From the NCBI GenBank assembly GCA_017511965.1, contig JAFWHT010000029.1, positions 1-37,856 on the forward strand: DNA of 37,856 nucleotides, read 5' to 3'. Positions 32,997 through 37,856 of the stretch are shown here, one piece after another (the stretch's first letter is position 1; each line of letters starts with the position of its first letter). A program made the translations under genes and the position numbers. Source of the DNA: Candidatus Saccharimonadota bacterium. GTDB lineage: Bacteria > Patescibacteriota > Saccharimonadia > Saccharimonadales > Saccharimonadaceae. Under the pieces are notes generated by a model. That model was given only the letters and a program-made list of their open reading frames with translations. It ran no database searches and was not told where the DNA came from.

Positions 32997-33103
32997 TTTG
33001 TACTCCTTTTTATTATCTACCCCTTATCTATCATACTCTAGTAAAAACTTCAACCCCCTTAAACTGCCTAGGCTTAATTTTGGATAATTTTTGAAAAAAA
33101 GTG

Positions 33104-33131
33104 TAGACTTTGAAAATGGTTGTGGTATAAT
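33104..33131 (+). promoter_or_regulatory. Promoter of the DGR target gene (leaderless)
   Basis: TAGACT (33104-33109), 16-base spacer, TATAAT (33126-33131) with TGG extension. The ATG at 33139 begins seven bases after the -10, so transcription should start at the start codon. Confidence 0.75.
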
Positions 33132-33138
33132 TGGGGGT

Positions 33139-34791
33139 ATGAAGAGAGTGATTTTGAGAGTAAGCAAAATATCAACTTTAATTTTGATGCTGGCATTGGG
33201 GTGGCTAGTAGCTAGCACAAAAGCTTGGGGGCTGTCATACTCGCAAGATATTGGGGTATCTTTCACCTTTTCGCCGACGATGAAAATTATATTGTCGGCG
33301 GATGGGTGTGGTATCTCAAATAACGGGCTGTGTATAGACAATTTGGCACCGGGGACATCTTCAGACTCTAACATTCTCACTATTACTGTGCTAAACAACA
33401 CCGGCAATGGCTATACTCTTGGTGCTTCGGTAGGCGATAGCACCGTTAATAGTGGCAGATTTGATACTAGAAATTTGGTTCATAGTAATAGTTCTATCAC
33501 TAGCTCTTTTGCTAGTATAGATACCACAGCAAGCTTAGCCGCCAATACTGACTTAACGGATAATACTTGGGGGTATGCATTTATGGATGAAACAATGAAT
33601 AATCCTACCTGGTCTTCTTACTCGGGTTTACCACTTTACTCTTCAACTGCACCAGCTACCTTGAAGACTTCACTCTCTCCTGCTACTTCTGCTGAAGGAG
33701 ATAAGATTAAATTTAAAATTGCGGCAAAATCAGCCGTCTCCCAATCTTCTGGTGAATACAATAATGTGATTAACTTTACCATCACTGCTCAACCCATTCC
33801 GGTTACGTTATCTATGGCTTATGAGAATGCTGGTAAACAGAAACTAAATGGTTACTATAAACTGCAAGACATGAGCTCGGCTATTTGTGACGCCACGGAA
33901 GTACTAGACGAAGGTAGTCAAACCCAGCTGATAGATGTTCGTGATAATAAGGTTTACTGGGCCACTAAACTCCAAGACGGCAAATGTTGGATGACGCAAA
34001 ACTTGGATTTAAACTTAAGCACAAGTGTGGCGCTAACCAATGCTGATACGGACTTAAATACGGTAGCGAGTTGGACGCCAGCCCGTAGTACTATTAACGC
34101 TGTCACCAACGCCAGCACGGCAGGCTCAATCCAAGGCTACACCAACGACTATAACACCCCGTATTCAGTAGACACAGGAGATTATTATTGGAACAACGCC
34201 ACATTCTACCCATCAGCCAACTGTTCTTACACTGTAGGCGGGGTACAATACCAAGGTTGTAACTACGTGACCAAAGCTGACGCTAATTGGAAAAATTATT
34301 TCTCTACTACACCATATGCAAGCAACGGCACTCACGGCCATGTAGGCAACTACTATAACTGGTCTGCAGCGGTGGCGAGCAACAATACAAGTAGCTATAC
34401 GGCTAGTACGATGGCTAATATCGCCAGCAACCCGCAAAATTCCATCTGCCCGAAGGGGTGGCGCCTCCCAACGGTTTCTAGCCAAACTCCAACTTACAAT
34501 ACAGCTGGTTCACCTAACGAATTCGCGAGATTAGCCGCTTTATATGACAATTATACCGGCAATACTAGCATTAGCAGCGAAGGCCTAGAAAAGGCTCCTG
34601 TTTATATGCCCCGCCCCGGCGACGTTAACGCGGGCGTGCTCAACTACGCTGGCCACAATGAGCGCTATTGGTCCTCTACGGTCTCTAGCGCTACGTTCGC
34701 ACGTAACCTAGGATTCAATTCCACAGTAGTCTACCCCGAGTACGAGGACTACCGCTACAGCGGCTTGTCGCTCCGTTGTGTCGCGCGTTAG
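33139..34791 (+). CDS. Secreted DGR target protein with hypervariable C-terminal FISUMP/C-type-lectin-like domain
   Basis: The 550-residue protein starts with a signal peptide (MKRVILRVSKIST, then the core LILMLALGWLVASTKAWG). Residues about 35-220 are a Ser/Thr/Asn-rich beta domain. Residues about 255-550 resemble the Fibrobacter succinogenes major paralogous domain, a formylglycine-enzyme/C-type-lectin relative: KVYWATKLQDGKCWMTQNLD and NSICPKGWRLPTVSSQTP. The last 57 residues are the DGR variable region, from RPGDVNAGVLNYAGHNERYW to LSLRCVAR. ATG 33139 is chosen over 33091 because it fits both promoter and signal peptide. Such domains present variable side chains for ligand binding; here probably a surface adhesin, by analogy with Mtd and other DGR targets. 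Confidence 0.93.
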   Translation: MKRVILRVSKISTLILMLALGWLVASTKAWGLSYSQDIGVSFTFSPTMKIILSADGCGISNNGLCIDNLAPGTSSDSNILTITVLNNTGNGYTLGASVGDSTVNSGRFDTRNLVHSNSSITSSFASIDTTASLAANTDLTDNTWGYAFMDETMNNPTWSSYSGLPLYSSTAPATLKTSLSPATSAEGDKIKFKIAAKSAVSQSSGEYNNVINFTITAQPIPVTLSMAYENAGKQKLNGYYKLQDMSSAICDATEVLDEGSQTQLIDVRDNKVYWATKLQDGKCWMTQNLDLNLSTSVALTNADTDLNTVASWTPARSTINAVTNASTAGSIQGYTNDYNTPYSVDTGDYYWNNATFYPSANCSYTVGGVQYQGCNYVTKADANWKNYFSTTPYASNGTHGHVGNYYNWSAAVASNNTSSYTASTMANIASNPQNSICPKGWRLPTVSSQTPTYNTAGSPNEFARLAALYDNYTGNTSISSEGLEKAPVYMPRPGDVNAGVLNYAGHNERYWSSTVSSATFARNLGFNSTVVYPEYEDYRYSGLSLRCVAR

Positions 34792-34823
34792 GTCTTTTCT
34801 CTTCCGGCCTCCTGCCATCTCCT
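34608..34823 (+). repeat. DGR variable repeat (VR)
   Basis: 216 bp aligned without gaps to the TR at 35720-35935 (offset 1,112). There are 13 differences. Eleven are at adenines of TR (VR 34621, 34645, 34654, 34663, 34664, 34696, 34732, 34741, 34747, 34750, 34760). The other two, 34767 (T in TR, G here) and 34817 (C in TR, A here), lie 3' of the diversified zone. Ten residues change: N to D, Y, H, R, Y, Y, D, Y and S, and one I to F. The repeat extends 32 bases past the stop codon. Confidence 0.97.
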
Positions 34824-34901
34824 TTTTTGAAACGCTTTTCTGATGTTTGCAATGTTCTGATTTTCTGGTAGTCTTCTAGAGCCAAAAAATTTAAAGAAAA
34901 A

Positions 34902-34919
34902 GCGCCTCGTAAGAGGCGC
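34902..34919. other. GC-rich hairpin downstream of VR
   Basis: Seven-base stem GCGCCTC/GAGGCGC (34902-34908 with 34913-34919) with GTAA tetraloop, 78 bp after the VR homology ends. No T-run follows on the plus strand; a T-rich tail exists only on the minus strand, where no gene needs terminating. Known DGRs have a GC-rich tetraloop hairpin or cruciform near VR that promotes target recognition, usually closer than this. Confidence 0.5.
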
Positions 34920-35012
34920 GCAAAAAAAAGGGGGGGGTTGCAGTTTTCTGACGTTCATGGTATAAGCCTCTGGTAGGTTGGGCTGTTTCTGTAAAAATAA
35001 TAAAACTAGTGG

Positions 35013-35018
35013 TATAAT
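35013..35018 (+). promoter_or_regulatory. Extended -10 of the toxin-antitoxin pair
   Basis: TATAAT preceded by TGG. The -35 is unclear. AAAGGAG follows before the ATG at 35042. Confidence 0.6.
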
Positions 35019-35041
35019 AAATACCAAGAAAGGAGAAATTT

Positions 35042-35230
35042 ATGGATGATATTGCGTTTCCGAAGCATTTAGGAATTGAAGTTGATTCGAAAAAAGAATT
35101 AGTTAGGCTAGTAGAAGAATCAGTAAAAAACGATAGTGGTGTTAGAGTGCCCATGAAAGAAGTTGAGTCTCGCATGAAAAATCGATTTAAACTAGCCAAA
35201 ACAATAGCAAAGGCTAGCGCTAGGTCTTAA
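35042..35230 (+). CDS. Putative antitoxin, 62 residues
   Basis: Small charged protein with a strong AAAGGAG ribosome binding site, directly upstream of and overlapping by one base (TAATG) a ParE/RelE-like toxin. The size and order fit a type II antitoxin, which binds the toxin and often its own promoter. No ribbon-helix-helix or other antitoxin motif is clear; the C-terminal half (about 30-62) is basic and helical. The call rests mainly on context. Confidence 0.6.
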   Translation: MDDIAFPKHLGIEVDSKKELVRLVEESVKNDSGVRVPMKEVESRMKNRFKLAKTIAKASARS

Positions 35231-35529
35231 TGGATTTATATGAAATAAATTTTACAGAAACAGCCATTTACAACCTAGAAGAGATATTTACATATATCTC
35301 TATAGAATTAGAGGACGTATTAGTTGCTGAAAAAGTCGTAAGAGATATTATTAGAAAATGCTATCGTTTGACACTTTTTCCCGAAGCCCATACAGTAAGA
35401 TTTGAGATTGAAAGTAAAAAAATGAGAGTTATTCGTAGTGGTAAATATGTTATTGCATATTCAACTAATAAAAAGTCCCGAACTGTTGATATTGAGTATA
35501 TTGCGCATTCTCGACGTAATGTGATATGA
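35230..35529 (+). CDS. ParE/RelE-superfamily toxin
   Basis: The 99-residue protein has the ParE/RelE pattern: YEINFTETAIYNLEEIFTYI at the start, the LFPEAHTVRF segment in the middle, and MRVIRSGKYVIAYSTNKKS followed by IEYIAHSRRNVI at the end. ParE-type toxins inhibit gyrase and RelE-type toxins cleave mRNA; which applies is not clear. It follows the antitoxin by a one-base overlap. The pair sits between the DGR VR and TR, an unusual place. Confidence 0.85.
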   Translation: MDLYEINFTETAIYNLEEIFTYISIELEDVLVAEKVVRDIIRKCYRLTLFPEAHTVRFEIESKKMRVIRSGKYVIAYSTNKKSRTVDIEYIAHSRRNVI

Positions 35530-35530
35530 T
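35501..35530 (+). promoter_or_regulatory. Candidate promoter of the TR RNA
   Basis: TATGAT (35525-35530) preceded by TGA, giving an extended -10, with TTGCGC (35501-35506) 18 bases upstream as a weak -35. It overlaps the toxin stop and would start a plus-strand RNA near 35537 that runs into TR. Confidence 0.45.
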
Positions 35531-35536
35531 GAGGGG

Positions 35537-35935
35537 GAGGATGCTCGCGGTAAACAGAGACGGCTTTTGTAGTCCCTCCCTTTGCCCGGACGAGATCTTC
35601 ACAAAAAAGGAGATGGGATAGATTCACCTTTATTTAGGGTCACTGATGTTTTTTCTGCTAAGGTGGAACAAAACAATAGCAATCTATGAAAACAGGTTCG
35701 GGAGTGTTTTCTTTGCCGGGCCCCGCCCCGGCAACGTTAACGCGGGCGTGCTCAACAACGCTGGCAACAATGAGAACTATTGGTCCTCTACGGTCTCTAG
35801 CGCTACGATCGCACGTAACCTAGGATTCAATTCCACAGTAGTCAACCCCGAGAACGAGAACAACCGCTACAACGGCTTTTCGCTCCGTTGTGTCGCGCGT
35901 TAGGTCTTTTCTCTTCCGGCCTCCTGCCCTCTCCT
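35537..35935 (+). ncRNA. Candidate DGR template RNA
   Basis: Proposed transcript from the extended -10 upstream through TR. DGR template RNA must carry the adenines of TR, so it must be made from the plus strand here, opposite to the reverse transcriptase gene. The 5' part holds GGGAGG (about 35535-35540), which can pair with CCTCCC (about 35575-35580). No protein is convincing in 35530-35719. Ends are inferred. Confidence 0.45.
35720..35935 (+). repeat. DGR template repeat (TR)
   Basis: 216 bp near-identical to VR, in the same orientation as VR. Read in the VR frame it holds 12 AAC codons, 9 of which are changed in VR, plus one changed ATC. The 140-bp zone 35733-35872 has 43 adenines; 11 of these differ in VR, and none of the 97 other bases do. 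The right end touches the reverse transcriptase stop codon. An 85-residue ORF across TR (35646-35903) is a by-product of this frame. Confidence 0.97.
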
Positions 35936-37100
35936 ATTCACGATATTCCCAGCCAAAGTCATCAAAAAGCTTTTTAAGATATTTTTTCGAACTTAGGTGT
36001 TTTGTTAGGCCAAGATAAGAAATAATGGTTTCAATCTCTTTTTTATCATTTACAAATTCTTCAGCGGCGCGATAAAACTTTTTTTGGAGTCGGTCAGAAA
36101 GGTAGAGACTGCGTGGGTAGATTCGAGCGCCAAGGGTTTCGACGCCTTTTTCGACTGGCTGGAAGTAACGTTTTTTGGGATGGAGTTTTAAATCAAGCTC
36201 GTTTTTTAAAAAGTTTTCAATTTTTTTGATGTTCTTTTTTGTTTTTTCGTATTCTTTTTCGGGAGTAATAATAATGAGATCGTCAACGTAGCGGCCATAG
36301 TATTTGATTTTTAAGTCATGTTTTATAAAACGGTCGAGTTTATCGAGATAGATGTTGGAGACGAGCTGAGAGGTGAGATTGCCGATAACGACACCTTTGC
36401 CCTCGGGCTGGGAAAAGAGGGATTTTCGGGGCGGAAGGATATTTGGATGCCAGTTTTTTAGGGGGCCACGCTTTTTGGCAGTTTTGACTGGGTCGTCGAA
36501 GAGAGTTTCGCGCCAGAGATAGAGACAGATTTGATAGATTTTGTAACCGACAGGGTCTTTTTTGTAGAGCTTAAATTGCTGATTTAGTCCCCATTTAACA
36601 TTTTCGAAAAGTTTTTGGCGTGGGAGCGACATAAAATAACCAGAAATGTCAAGCTTGATAGTGTAGGCTTTTTGTTGGCCGTTTTTTGAAGCATGGCGCA
36701 TCATGGTTTGGATGCGTTTAATGCCGAGAAGAGTGCCTTTTTCGTTGCGACAGCTATAAGAATCATAAATAAAATGATTATCCCACCAGCCGGCCTGCAT
36801 GTTGTAGAGAAAATGATGGACAACTCTATCACGAAAGGGCGCGGCAAAAATTTCGCGCACCATCGGGTCGAAAACGATAAAAGTAATTGAAGGGCTGGGA
36901 TGATAGTTTTTATCTAGGATTGAATTTTTGAGACGATTTAGATTTTCGAATTGATTTAATTCAAAATCGTGCTCGTCTCTTGTTTTTCGTTTGCCTTTTC
37001 GGGCTTCGAGATAGGCGAGAAAGAGTTCCTTAAAAAGCCAATTTTCGAAGCTGGTTTGTTTGACGTTTTTGATAGCTTTTTCGATGTCGTAAGGTTTCAT
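35934..37100 (-). CDS. DGR-type reverse transcriptase
   Basis: The 388-residue RT makes mutagenised cDNA from TR RNA. Motifs in order: IFAAPFRDRVVHHFLYN (RT1-2), YTIKLDISGYFMSLPR (motif A with catalytic Asp), GVVIGNLTSQLVSNIYLDKL (the DGR-typical xGxxxSQ motif in place of the QG of retroviral RTs), YGRYVDDLIII (catalytic YVDD) and VETLGARIY. No maturase, endonuclease or integrase domain is present. ATG 37100 is chosen because it overlaps the upstream stop as ATGA and the SQ/YVDD core is complete; the longer frame from 37175 would read through the preceding gene. It stops at the edge of TR. Confidence 0.95.
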   Translation of the reverse strand: MKPYDIEKAIKNVKQTSFENWLFKELFLAYLEARKGKRKTRDEHDFELNQFENLNRLKNSILDKNYHPSPSITFIVFDPMVREIFAAPFRDRVVHHFLYNMQAGWWDNHFIYDSYSCRNEKGTLLGIKRIQTMMRHASKNGQQKAYTIKLDISGYFMSLPRQKLFENVKWGLNQQFKLYKKDPVGYKIYQICLYLWRETLFDDPVKTAKKRGPLKNWHPNILPPRKSLFSQPEGKGVVIGNLTSQLVSNIYLDKLDRFIKHDLKIKYYGRYVDDLIIITPEKEYEKTKKNIKKIENFLKNELDLKLHPKKRYFQPVEKGVETLGARIYPRSLYLSDRLQKKFYRAAEEFVNDKKEIETIISYLGLTKHLSSKKYLKKLFDDFGWEYRE

Positions 37101-37856
37101 TTTAGGCGTTTCTTGAGAAGATTTTTTAGTTCGAGGATTGGGCTGATAACAGAGGAGCTGGTTTCTGCGCCCCAAAGCCTGGTTTCGGAGAGAAGCTGGA
37201 CTTCGTAGATGATTTGGTTGATTTTTTCGAGAAATTCGGCATAGAGCTGGCGGTCGATTTTTGGGGTTTGGTAGTATTTTAGAATAATACTATCGATTAA
37301 ATTAACGAGGCGAGCGCCATTTTGTTGACTGGAGAGTTTGTCGAGTTTGCTCGAGCAAGATTCATGGAGACGGTGAGCGGATTCGATGAGATGAAAATGA
37401 AAAATTGGGTCGGAGAAATTAATTTTGACGAGAGAGCGATTTTCCTCGCGACGTTTTAGCTCCAGGGCTTTTAGATTTAAGAGGTCTTTTTTGGTGAGGT
37501 TTAAATTTAGAGCAAAGGCGTAGCAATGATTTTTTTCTTTGGCATCTTTTAGGAGATTGGCGGATTTGATGCGAGTTTTGATAAGCTCGGGGCTTCGGAG
37601 GCGGATACGACCAAGCTCGTAAGGGTGATAGTAGCTGTCTTGGTCGGATTCGAAATTGACTTTTAGGTTTAGTGCTTCGCAAATTTTGTAGTAGTAGATA
37701 AGAGCAGAATTTTCTGCCATTTCGTACCATCCTTTGTTGCCAGAGCAGGGGATGATAAGGATTTTATTATAGTTGGTTTTTTCGGCGACAATTAATTTGT
37801 CTTTTAATTCCCGATATTTTTCGATTGAAATATCGGGGGGGGGGGGGGGGGGGGGG
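37097..37856 (-). CDS. DGR-linked protein of unknown function, 5' end missing
   Basis: The frame stays open from 37097 past the first ATG at 37720 to the window edge. Upstream of that ATG it reads NYNKILIIPCSGNKGWYEMA, which looks like a buried beta strand and loop, so the true start lies outside. The C-terminal ~110 residues are helical (HFHLIESAHRLHESCSSKLD). It overlaps RT by ATGA, as accessory genes of DGRs often do. The usual partner is Avd, a small four-helix bundle of about 120 residues; this protein is longer and lacks a clear Avd signature, so it may be a divergent Avd fused to another domain or a different accessory factor. Confidence 0.6.
   Translation of the reverse strand, partial: PPPPPPPDISIEKYRELKDKLIVAEKTNYNKILIIPCSGNKGWYEMAENSALIYYYKICEALNLKVNFESDQDSYYHPYELGRIRLRSPELIKTRIKSANLLKDAKEKNHCYAFALNLNLTKKDLLNLKALELKRREENRSLVKINFSDPIFHFHLIESAHRLHESCSSKLDKLSSQQNGARLVNLIDSIILKYYQTPKIDRQLYAEFLEKINQIIYEVQLLSETRLWGAETSSSVISPILELKNLLKKRLK
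37810..37837. repeat. Perfect 10-bp inverted repeat at the window end
   Basis: Arms 37810-37819 and 37828-37837 around an eight-base loop, running directly into the poly-G run. It may be genuine or a fold-back product of sequencing or assembly. Confidence 0.6.
37835..37856 (+). other. Terminal poly-G run (22 G)
   Basis: An unbroken run of 22 G at the end of the window. It would encode poly-proline in the gene crossing it. Most likely a contig-end artefact such as two-colour sequencing dark cycles. Confidence 0.8.

Follow-up and report, generated by a model that had tools for sequence, protein, structure and literature searches.

The closest described system is the diversity-generating retroelement (DGR) of the Bordetella phage BPP-1, which is arranged as avd-TR-brt and diversifies the receptor-binding protein Mtd. 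In the BPP-1 template RNA, avd lies on the 5' side of the template repeat (TR) and a structured spacer on its 3' side (PMC12875486). DGR reverse transcriptases (RTs) are known to err at the adenines of the template RNA, an over-representation of AAC codons in DGR templates has already been published, and the measured AAC error profile of BPP-1 is led by Tyr (PMC12875486). It has also been reported that DGR clade 2 is restricted to Patescibacteria/CPR (Roux et al. 2021; PMC8144416); the words 'orientation' and 'accessory' are absent from the main text of that paper. In addition, a MutS-like protein (MSL, PF01624) is a named DGR accessory (PMC10053308).

We analyzed a 37,856-nt stretch of DNA (hereafter, the window) from a Candidatus Saccharimonadota bacterium. 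The repeat designated TR1 in Table 1 is the TR of a DGR, and we hold with high confidence that it serves as the template of such an element in a Saccharibacteria chromosome, working by the mechanism proposed below. This identification is based on the combination of a TR/variable repeat (VR) pair, a DGR-type RT, an accessory protein with an Avd domain, and a FISUMP target whose model is Mtd-like. The locus is similar to BPP-1 in its RT homologue, Avd-fold partner, A-to-N exchange and AAC-rich TR, and also in that the VR forms the C-terminal end of a putative binding protein whose model suggests a similar fold. Unlike in BPP-1, the TR is convergent to the RT, the structured part lies 5' of the TR, the Avd-like domain is fused to another domain, and the targets are dispersed chromosomal FISUMP genes. 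With clade 2 of Roux et al. (PMC8144416) it shares being a cellular DGR of Patescibacteria, a likeness by host group alone. We thus regard it as a DGR of known kind with a variant layout, whose leader, trans use and phase tracts are suggested by comparative sequence data.

Table 1. Positions of the features discussed in the text (numbering of the window unless a contig is named)
Feature	Position	Strand	Remarks
DGR target, 550 aa	33139..34791	+	Hydrophobic N-terminal segment; C-terminal FISUMP domain (TIGR02145); Mtd/Lcl-like model
Variable repeat VR1	34608..34826	+	3' end of target gene, extending into its 3' flank
ParDE-like toxin-antitoxin pair	35042..35529	+	Between VR and TR; toxin 35230-35529, PF05016
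Putative extended -10 box of template RNA	35525..35530	+	TGATATGAT; TATAAT in most sister cassettes
Template RNA leader (putative)	35531..35719	+	P1 35537-35547 / 35591-35600; P2 motif about 35610-35627; P3 hairpin 35627-35638
Template repeat TR1	35720..35938	+	AAC-coded core 35733-35872; end overlaps RT stop codon 35934-35936
AAC codon starts in TR zone	35733, 35739, 35754, 35757, 35766, 35775, 35817, 35844, 35853, 35859, 35862, 35871		VR frame
DGR-type RT, 388 aa	35934..37100	-	Motifs IGNLTSQ, YVDD; convergent with TR
Accessory protein, incomplete at contig end	37097..37855	-	C-terminal four-helix domain, Avd/S23-like; N-terminal alpha/beta domain, kinship unproven
Poly-C tract, at least 22	37835..37856	-	5' end of accessory frame; assembly ends inside tract (22 G on + strand)
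Second DGR cassette, same genome	L044 (contig C7) 3895-7836		Layout as in window

TR1 and VR1 are direct repeats of 219 nt that share 94% identity at an offset of 1112 nt. Over the full length, 12 of the 45 TR adenines differ in the VR versus 2 of the 174 other bases (Fisher p = 1e-7); that is, the differences are nearly confined to TR adenines, the pattern by which DGRs are recognized. The core zone contains 11 nucleotide differences, each of which affects an adenine of the TR (5 A>T, 4 A>G, 2 A>C), and 10 of them lie inside AAC codons (p = 0.007). Of the 47 codons in the zone 12 are AAC, versus 21 of 494 upstream in the target gene (binomial p = 5e-7), and AAC is absent from the two other TR reading frames. 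Nine of the 12 AAC codons are altered in the VR, to D, Y, H, R, Y, Y, D, Y and S, and the ATC at 35808 becomes TTC, giving 10 altered residues. A sequence-only reading of this DNA had claimed that the TR is coded for diversification through AAC codons. Its counts (43 adenines, 12 AAC codons, nine altered to Asp, Tyr, His, Arg or Ser, and 10 changed residues) proved exact, and the claim itself is borne out by the AAC excess, by the exchange confined to adenines and by the fixed AAC columns of 43 cassettes described below. Its statement that AAC permits many residues and no stop codon also agrees with our codon check, since NNC specifies 15 residues and zero stops, and adenine changes cannot turn any codon of the zone into a stop. 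The very large repertoire that it deduced from the 43 adenines was overstated, because only 24 of them, in which 10 of the 11 changes are concentrated, are inside AAC codons.

We also examined the coding rule in related genomes; all sequences compared come from MAGs. In the 36 cassettes with complete target frames, AAC occurs at 233 per 1000 codons in the TRs versus 38 upstream of the VR in the same genes. Changes were found at 763 of 1916 TR adenines versus 19 of 4768 other bases, 444 of 519 AAC codons were altered, and the share of stop-risk codons fell from 4.2% to 1.3%. The products of the 444 altered codons were Tyr (189), Gly (64), Ser (60), Asp (29) and others, in agreement with the Tyr-led error profile of AAC in BPP-1 (PMC12875486). 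In an alignment of 43 cassettes the AAC codons recur in fixed columns, reaching 93% at the GN and N[YF]WSS positions, for instance, and they alternate with hydrophobic residues in the order A-Y-N-L-N-F-N. Such a periodicity would suit a beta strand that exposes one variable face, and of the available data it bears most closely on the predicted exposure of the changed residues. The proposal that AAC-free blocks such as YWSSTVSS form the scaffold also fits these data: YWSSTVSS is the same in the VR, and G9, W28, R72 and C73 never vary in any of the 43 cassettes. The pattern therefore confirms a known coding principle and is not itself a new one. With more than 40 templates, in which AAC columns are conserved and scaffolds have diverged, it constitutes a strong natural test of that principle.

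The target protein exceeded the curated cut-off of the FISUMP profile TIGR02145 (48.6 versus 41.65 bits) and carries the VR at its C-terminus. Its structural model had a pTM of 0.83, with a pLDDT of about 51-68 over most of the VR part. Only five chains matched the model with Z of 2 or higher, and among these five were the C-terminal domain of Lcl from Legionella (Z 5.5) and Mtd of BPP-1 (Z 4.5), which is suggestive of an Lcl/Mtd-like fold. A Foldseek search with the model gave no significant match, and the sequence profile of the target had no match in the PDB. The FISUMP targets presumably bind a host or another surface. Directly upstream of the target gene lies a gene for a Bro-N domain protein (PF02498; 32157-32996, minus strand).

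For the RT, the best relative in the PDB was the BPP-1 DGR RT (8ub7, E 1.4e-30), followed by a match at 2e-4; this homology assigns the protein to the DGR type at the level of sequence. The accessory gene lies upstream of the RT gene in the same operon. Its product was modelled with a pLDDT of 95, and each of the seven best structural matches of its C-terminal domain was an S23 or an Avd chain (Z 13.1-15.6, rmsd 1.9-2.2). Given that a Z of up to about 13 between helical bundles may reflect a common arrangement only, the weight of this likeness lies in the family agreement of the matches and in the operon context; on this basis, the model assigns the C-terminal domain to the Avd-type fold that is expected of a DGR accessory. 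Sequence-level support for the Avd resemblance was not found, and a Pfam search with the accessory protein returned nothing coherent. The protein as a whole may resemble the MSL-type DGR accessories. For the N-terminal domain a MutS-like identity is unsupported, because Pfam MutS_I matched none of 35 members of the accessory family and the PDB gave no sequence match. The protein is comparable to MSL (PMC10053308) in having an extra domain on a DGR accessory, and differs from it in the MutS_I result.

The accessory frame of the window has a poly-C tract at its 5' end, and a homologous tract of 12 C lies within the accessory frame of the second cassette, one base short of being in frame with its ATG. 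Tracts of 8 and 11 C were also found inside the accessory genes of two other genomes, each one base too long, and poly-G tracts lie near the starts of three target genes: G12 at L220:4559 and G9 at L191:1396, both out of frame, and G13 at L160:3674, in frame. Five of the six readable cases, in accessory or target genes, are thus out of frame. The natural reading of these tracts is phase variation, which could switch genes of the system on and off. Homopolymers are poorly handled by metagenome assemblies, and the window contig itself terminates in such a tract, so that the tracts could instead be assembly or sequencing noise that switches nothing. However, such runs are rare, with 7 of at least 8 bases in 939 kb, yet they occur in the accessory genes of four cassettes and the target genes of three, and full-length frames of the tract-bearing genes exist at other tract lengths. 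We therefore find the noise explanation rather doubtful, though still one to be taken seriously, and we favor phase variation. The MutS_I domain was found in none of 25 genomes of the order and in 11 of 14 control genomes. MutS mismatch repair may therefore be missing in these bacteria, and this would favor both slippage and the keeping of DGR mutations.

The tiny genome that contains the window (as contig 8), from a gut or rumen Saccharibacterium, comprises 695 kb and is 97% complete. A search of 150 genomes found relatives of its RT in 53, of which 51 belong to the genus of the window, and in a named collection the 80 RT-related loci came almost only from Candidatus Saccharibacteria of animal guts, ruminants foremost. 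In the second cassette, 15 of 50 adenines and none of 164 other bases are changed, so that all 15 VR changes are at adenines. Its RT (RT2) is broken: about residues 73-131 are missing and the frame contains one stop. The genome also harbors some 28 FISUMP loci and many repeats among them. We compared 20 FISUMP-like gene ends with the TRs. In about six, the VR can be aligned over almost its whole length to TR1, and in about six to the TR of the second cassette (TR2), with Fisher p-values for adenine bias of 1e-13 to 2e-2; a few others showed a weak or partial TR match, and older VR copies also contain many non-adenine changes. The genome thus has a single intact RT (RT1) but two TRs, and about a dozen target genes that derive from these. 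Since only RT1 is intact and VRs are derived from both TRs, RT1 probably acts in trans on TR2 and on the scattered targets.

If the element were now inactive and its VRs relics, the damage to RT2 and the many accessory frames that are out of frame at poly-C tracts would be accounted for. However, RT1 is intact, and in the two cassettes changes outside adenines are few or absent, a sign of recent exchange; we therefore consider inactivity improbable and a still active DGR the more probable reading. Contigs C4, C19, C26, C27, C29, C31, C36, C37 and C38 start or end within or beside FISUMP genes. This repeat family probably breaks the assembly, and the targets may be undercounted.

The TR of 52 cassettes closely follows the RT stop codon on the 3' side, with its A-sense strand opposite to the RT, and in three (L144, L145 and L146) it is co-oriented with the RT. 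In L101 and L089 no RT lies right beside the A-biased TR/VR pair, which indicates that template and RT are separable. Because the errors of known DGR RTs arise at adenines of the template, the RNA that serves as template is expected on the strand opposite to the RT. On this + strand, upstream of the TR, the putative -10 box precedes a leader with the predicted elements P1, P2 and P3. In about 17 cassettes the score of the P2 motif was much higher than that of shuffled sequence. P1 pairs the start of the leader with the stretch before P2, and the pairing of each leader with itself was stronger than with swapped partners (mean -16.5 versus -12.2 kcal/mol), a difference equalled in none of 100000 permutations, also when near-duplicates were left out; an earlier version of this test was run on a nine-cassette set. 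These comparisons demonstrate co-variation of the P1 helix in sequence, a signal that is present with P2 anchoring in a related subset. In a blind helix search of 47 leaders that was not anchored on P2 there was almost no signal, the self-partner being best in 2 of 47. The window leader taken alone did not fold significantly better than its shuffles (z -0.81), and its minimum-energy fold lacks P1 as drawn. A blastn search with it gave a full-length match only to the second cassette, and an Rfam search of 33000-37856 gave one sub-threshold match only, within the RT gene. The leader can accordingly be regarded as established, from sequence comparison, for the clade closest to the window only; its transcription start and its function are putative.

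Because the TR is directly downstream of the RT stop codon, a template RNA could also arise by read-through of the RT strand, in which case mutation would occur on the complement and the + strand leader would belong to an unrelated RNA. This is quite improbable in our view, since errors at template RNA adenines (PMC12875486) require a + strand RNA here and since the -10 box and the co-varying leader are found on that strand. One could also regard the TR as a duplicate of the target 3' end that has decayed and differs by ordinary divergence, in view of its position within a short ORF (35646-35903) and of the many FISUMP repeats. This reading has a practically negligible chance and is refuted by the one-sided adenine bias: close pairs exchange only at the adenines of one copy, and the AAC codons stay in frame without stop risk in a pattern common to 43 cassettes.

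Based on the DGR reading and on a + strand template RNA, we propose the following mechanism. A + strand promoter would drive a template RNA consisting of the structured leader (P1-P3) and then the TR, and heading for the RT gene in the opposite sense. The RT and the accessory protein with its Avd-like domain would copy the TR with errors at adenines, and the resulting cDNA would replace the VR of secreted FISUMP proteins. The AAC codons would define the variable residues, with 15 possible at each and never a stop, and the AAC-free codons would keep the fold. RT1 probably also serves TR2 and about a dozen targets in trans.

It is possible that this genus has a distinct layout, in which a 5'-leader template RNA with its own promoter is convergent with the RT operon, a single RT-Avd pair serves two TRs and about a dozen targets in trans, and poly-C/G tracts gate the accessory or the target genes (phase variation over targeted hypermutation), in genomes where no MutS_I was found. 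We offer this proposal tentatively, leaning slightly to the sceptical side. A search of the PMC open subset for a convergent TR or phase-variable DGR parts found nothing, and the layout may be new. If the proposal is true, a convergent TR with a structured 5' leader would mean that the 3' spacer of BPP-1 is not the sole way to present a template. Many Saccharibacteria live on other bacteria. For such minimal-genome organisms, diversified and possibly switchable surface proteins represent a candidate mechanism for partner recognition or phage escape.

TR/VR identity extends beyond the target stop codon; in a DGR, an initiation of mutagenic homing (IMH) element at the VR 3' end and a downstream hairpin would be expected here. 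A hairpin at 34902-34919, 3' of the VR, has a perfect 7-bp stem and a 4-nt loop, and a run of T comes after it on the minus strand; of the two possibilities, a minus-strand terminator or a DGR hairpin, it looks like the former, and inspection of the second cassette by eye revealed no counterpart. The ParDE-like pair between VR and TR is probably a passenger. A 21-nt inverted repeat (34981-35001 / 35245-35265) overlaps the neighborhood of this pair.
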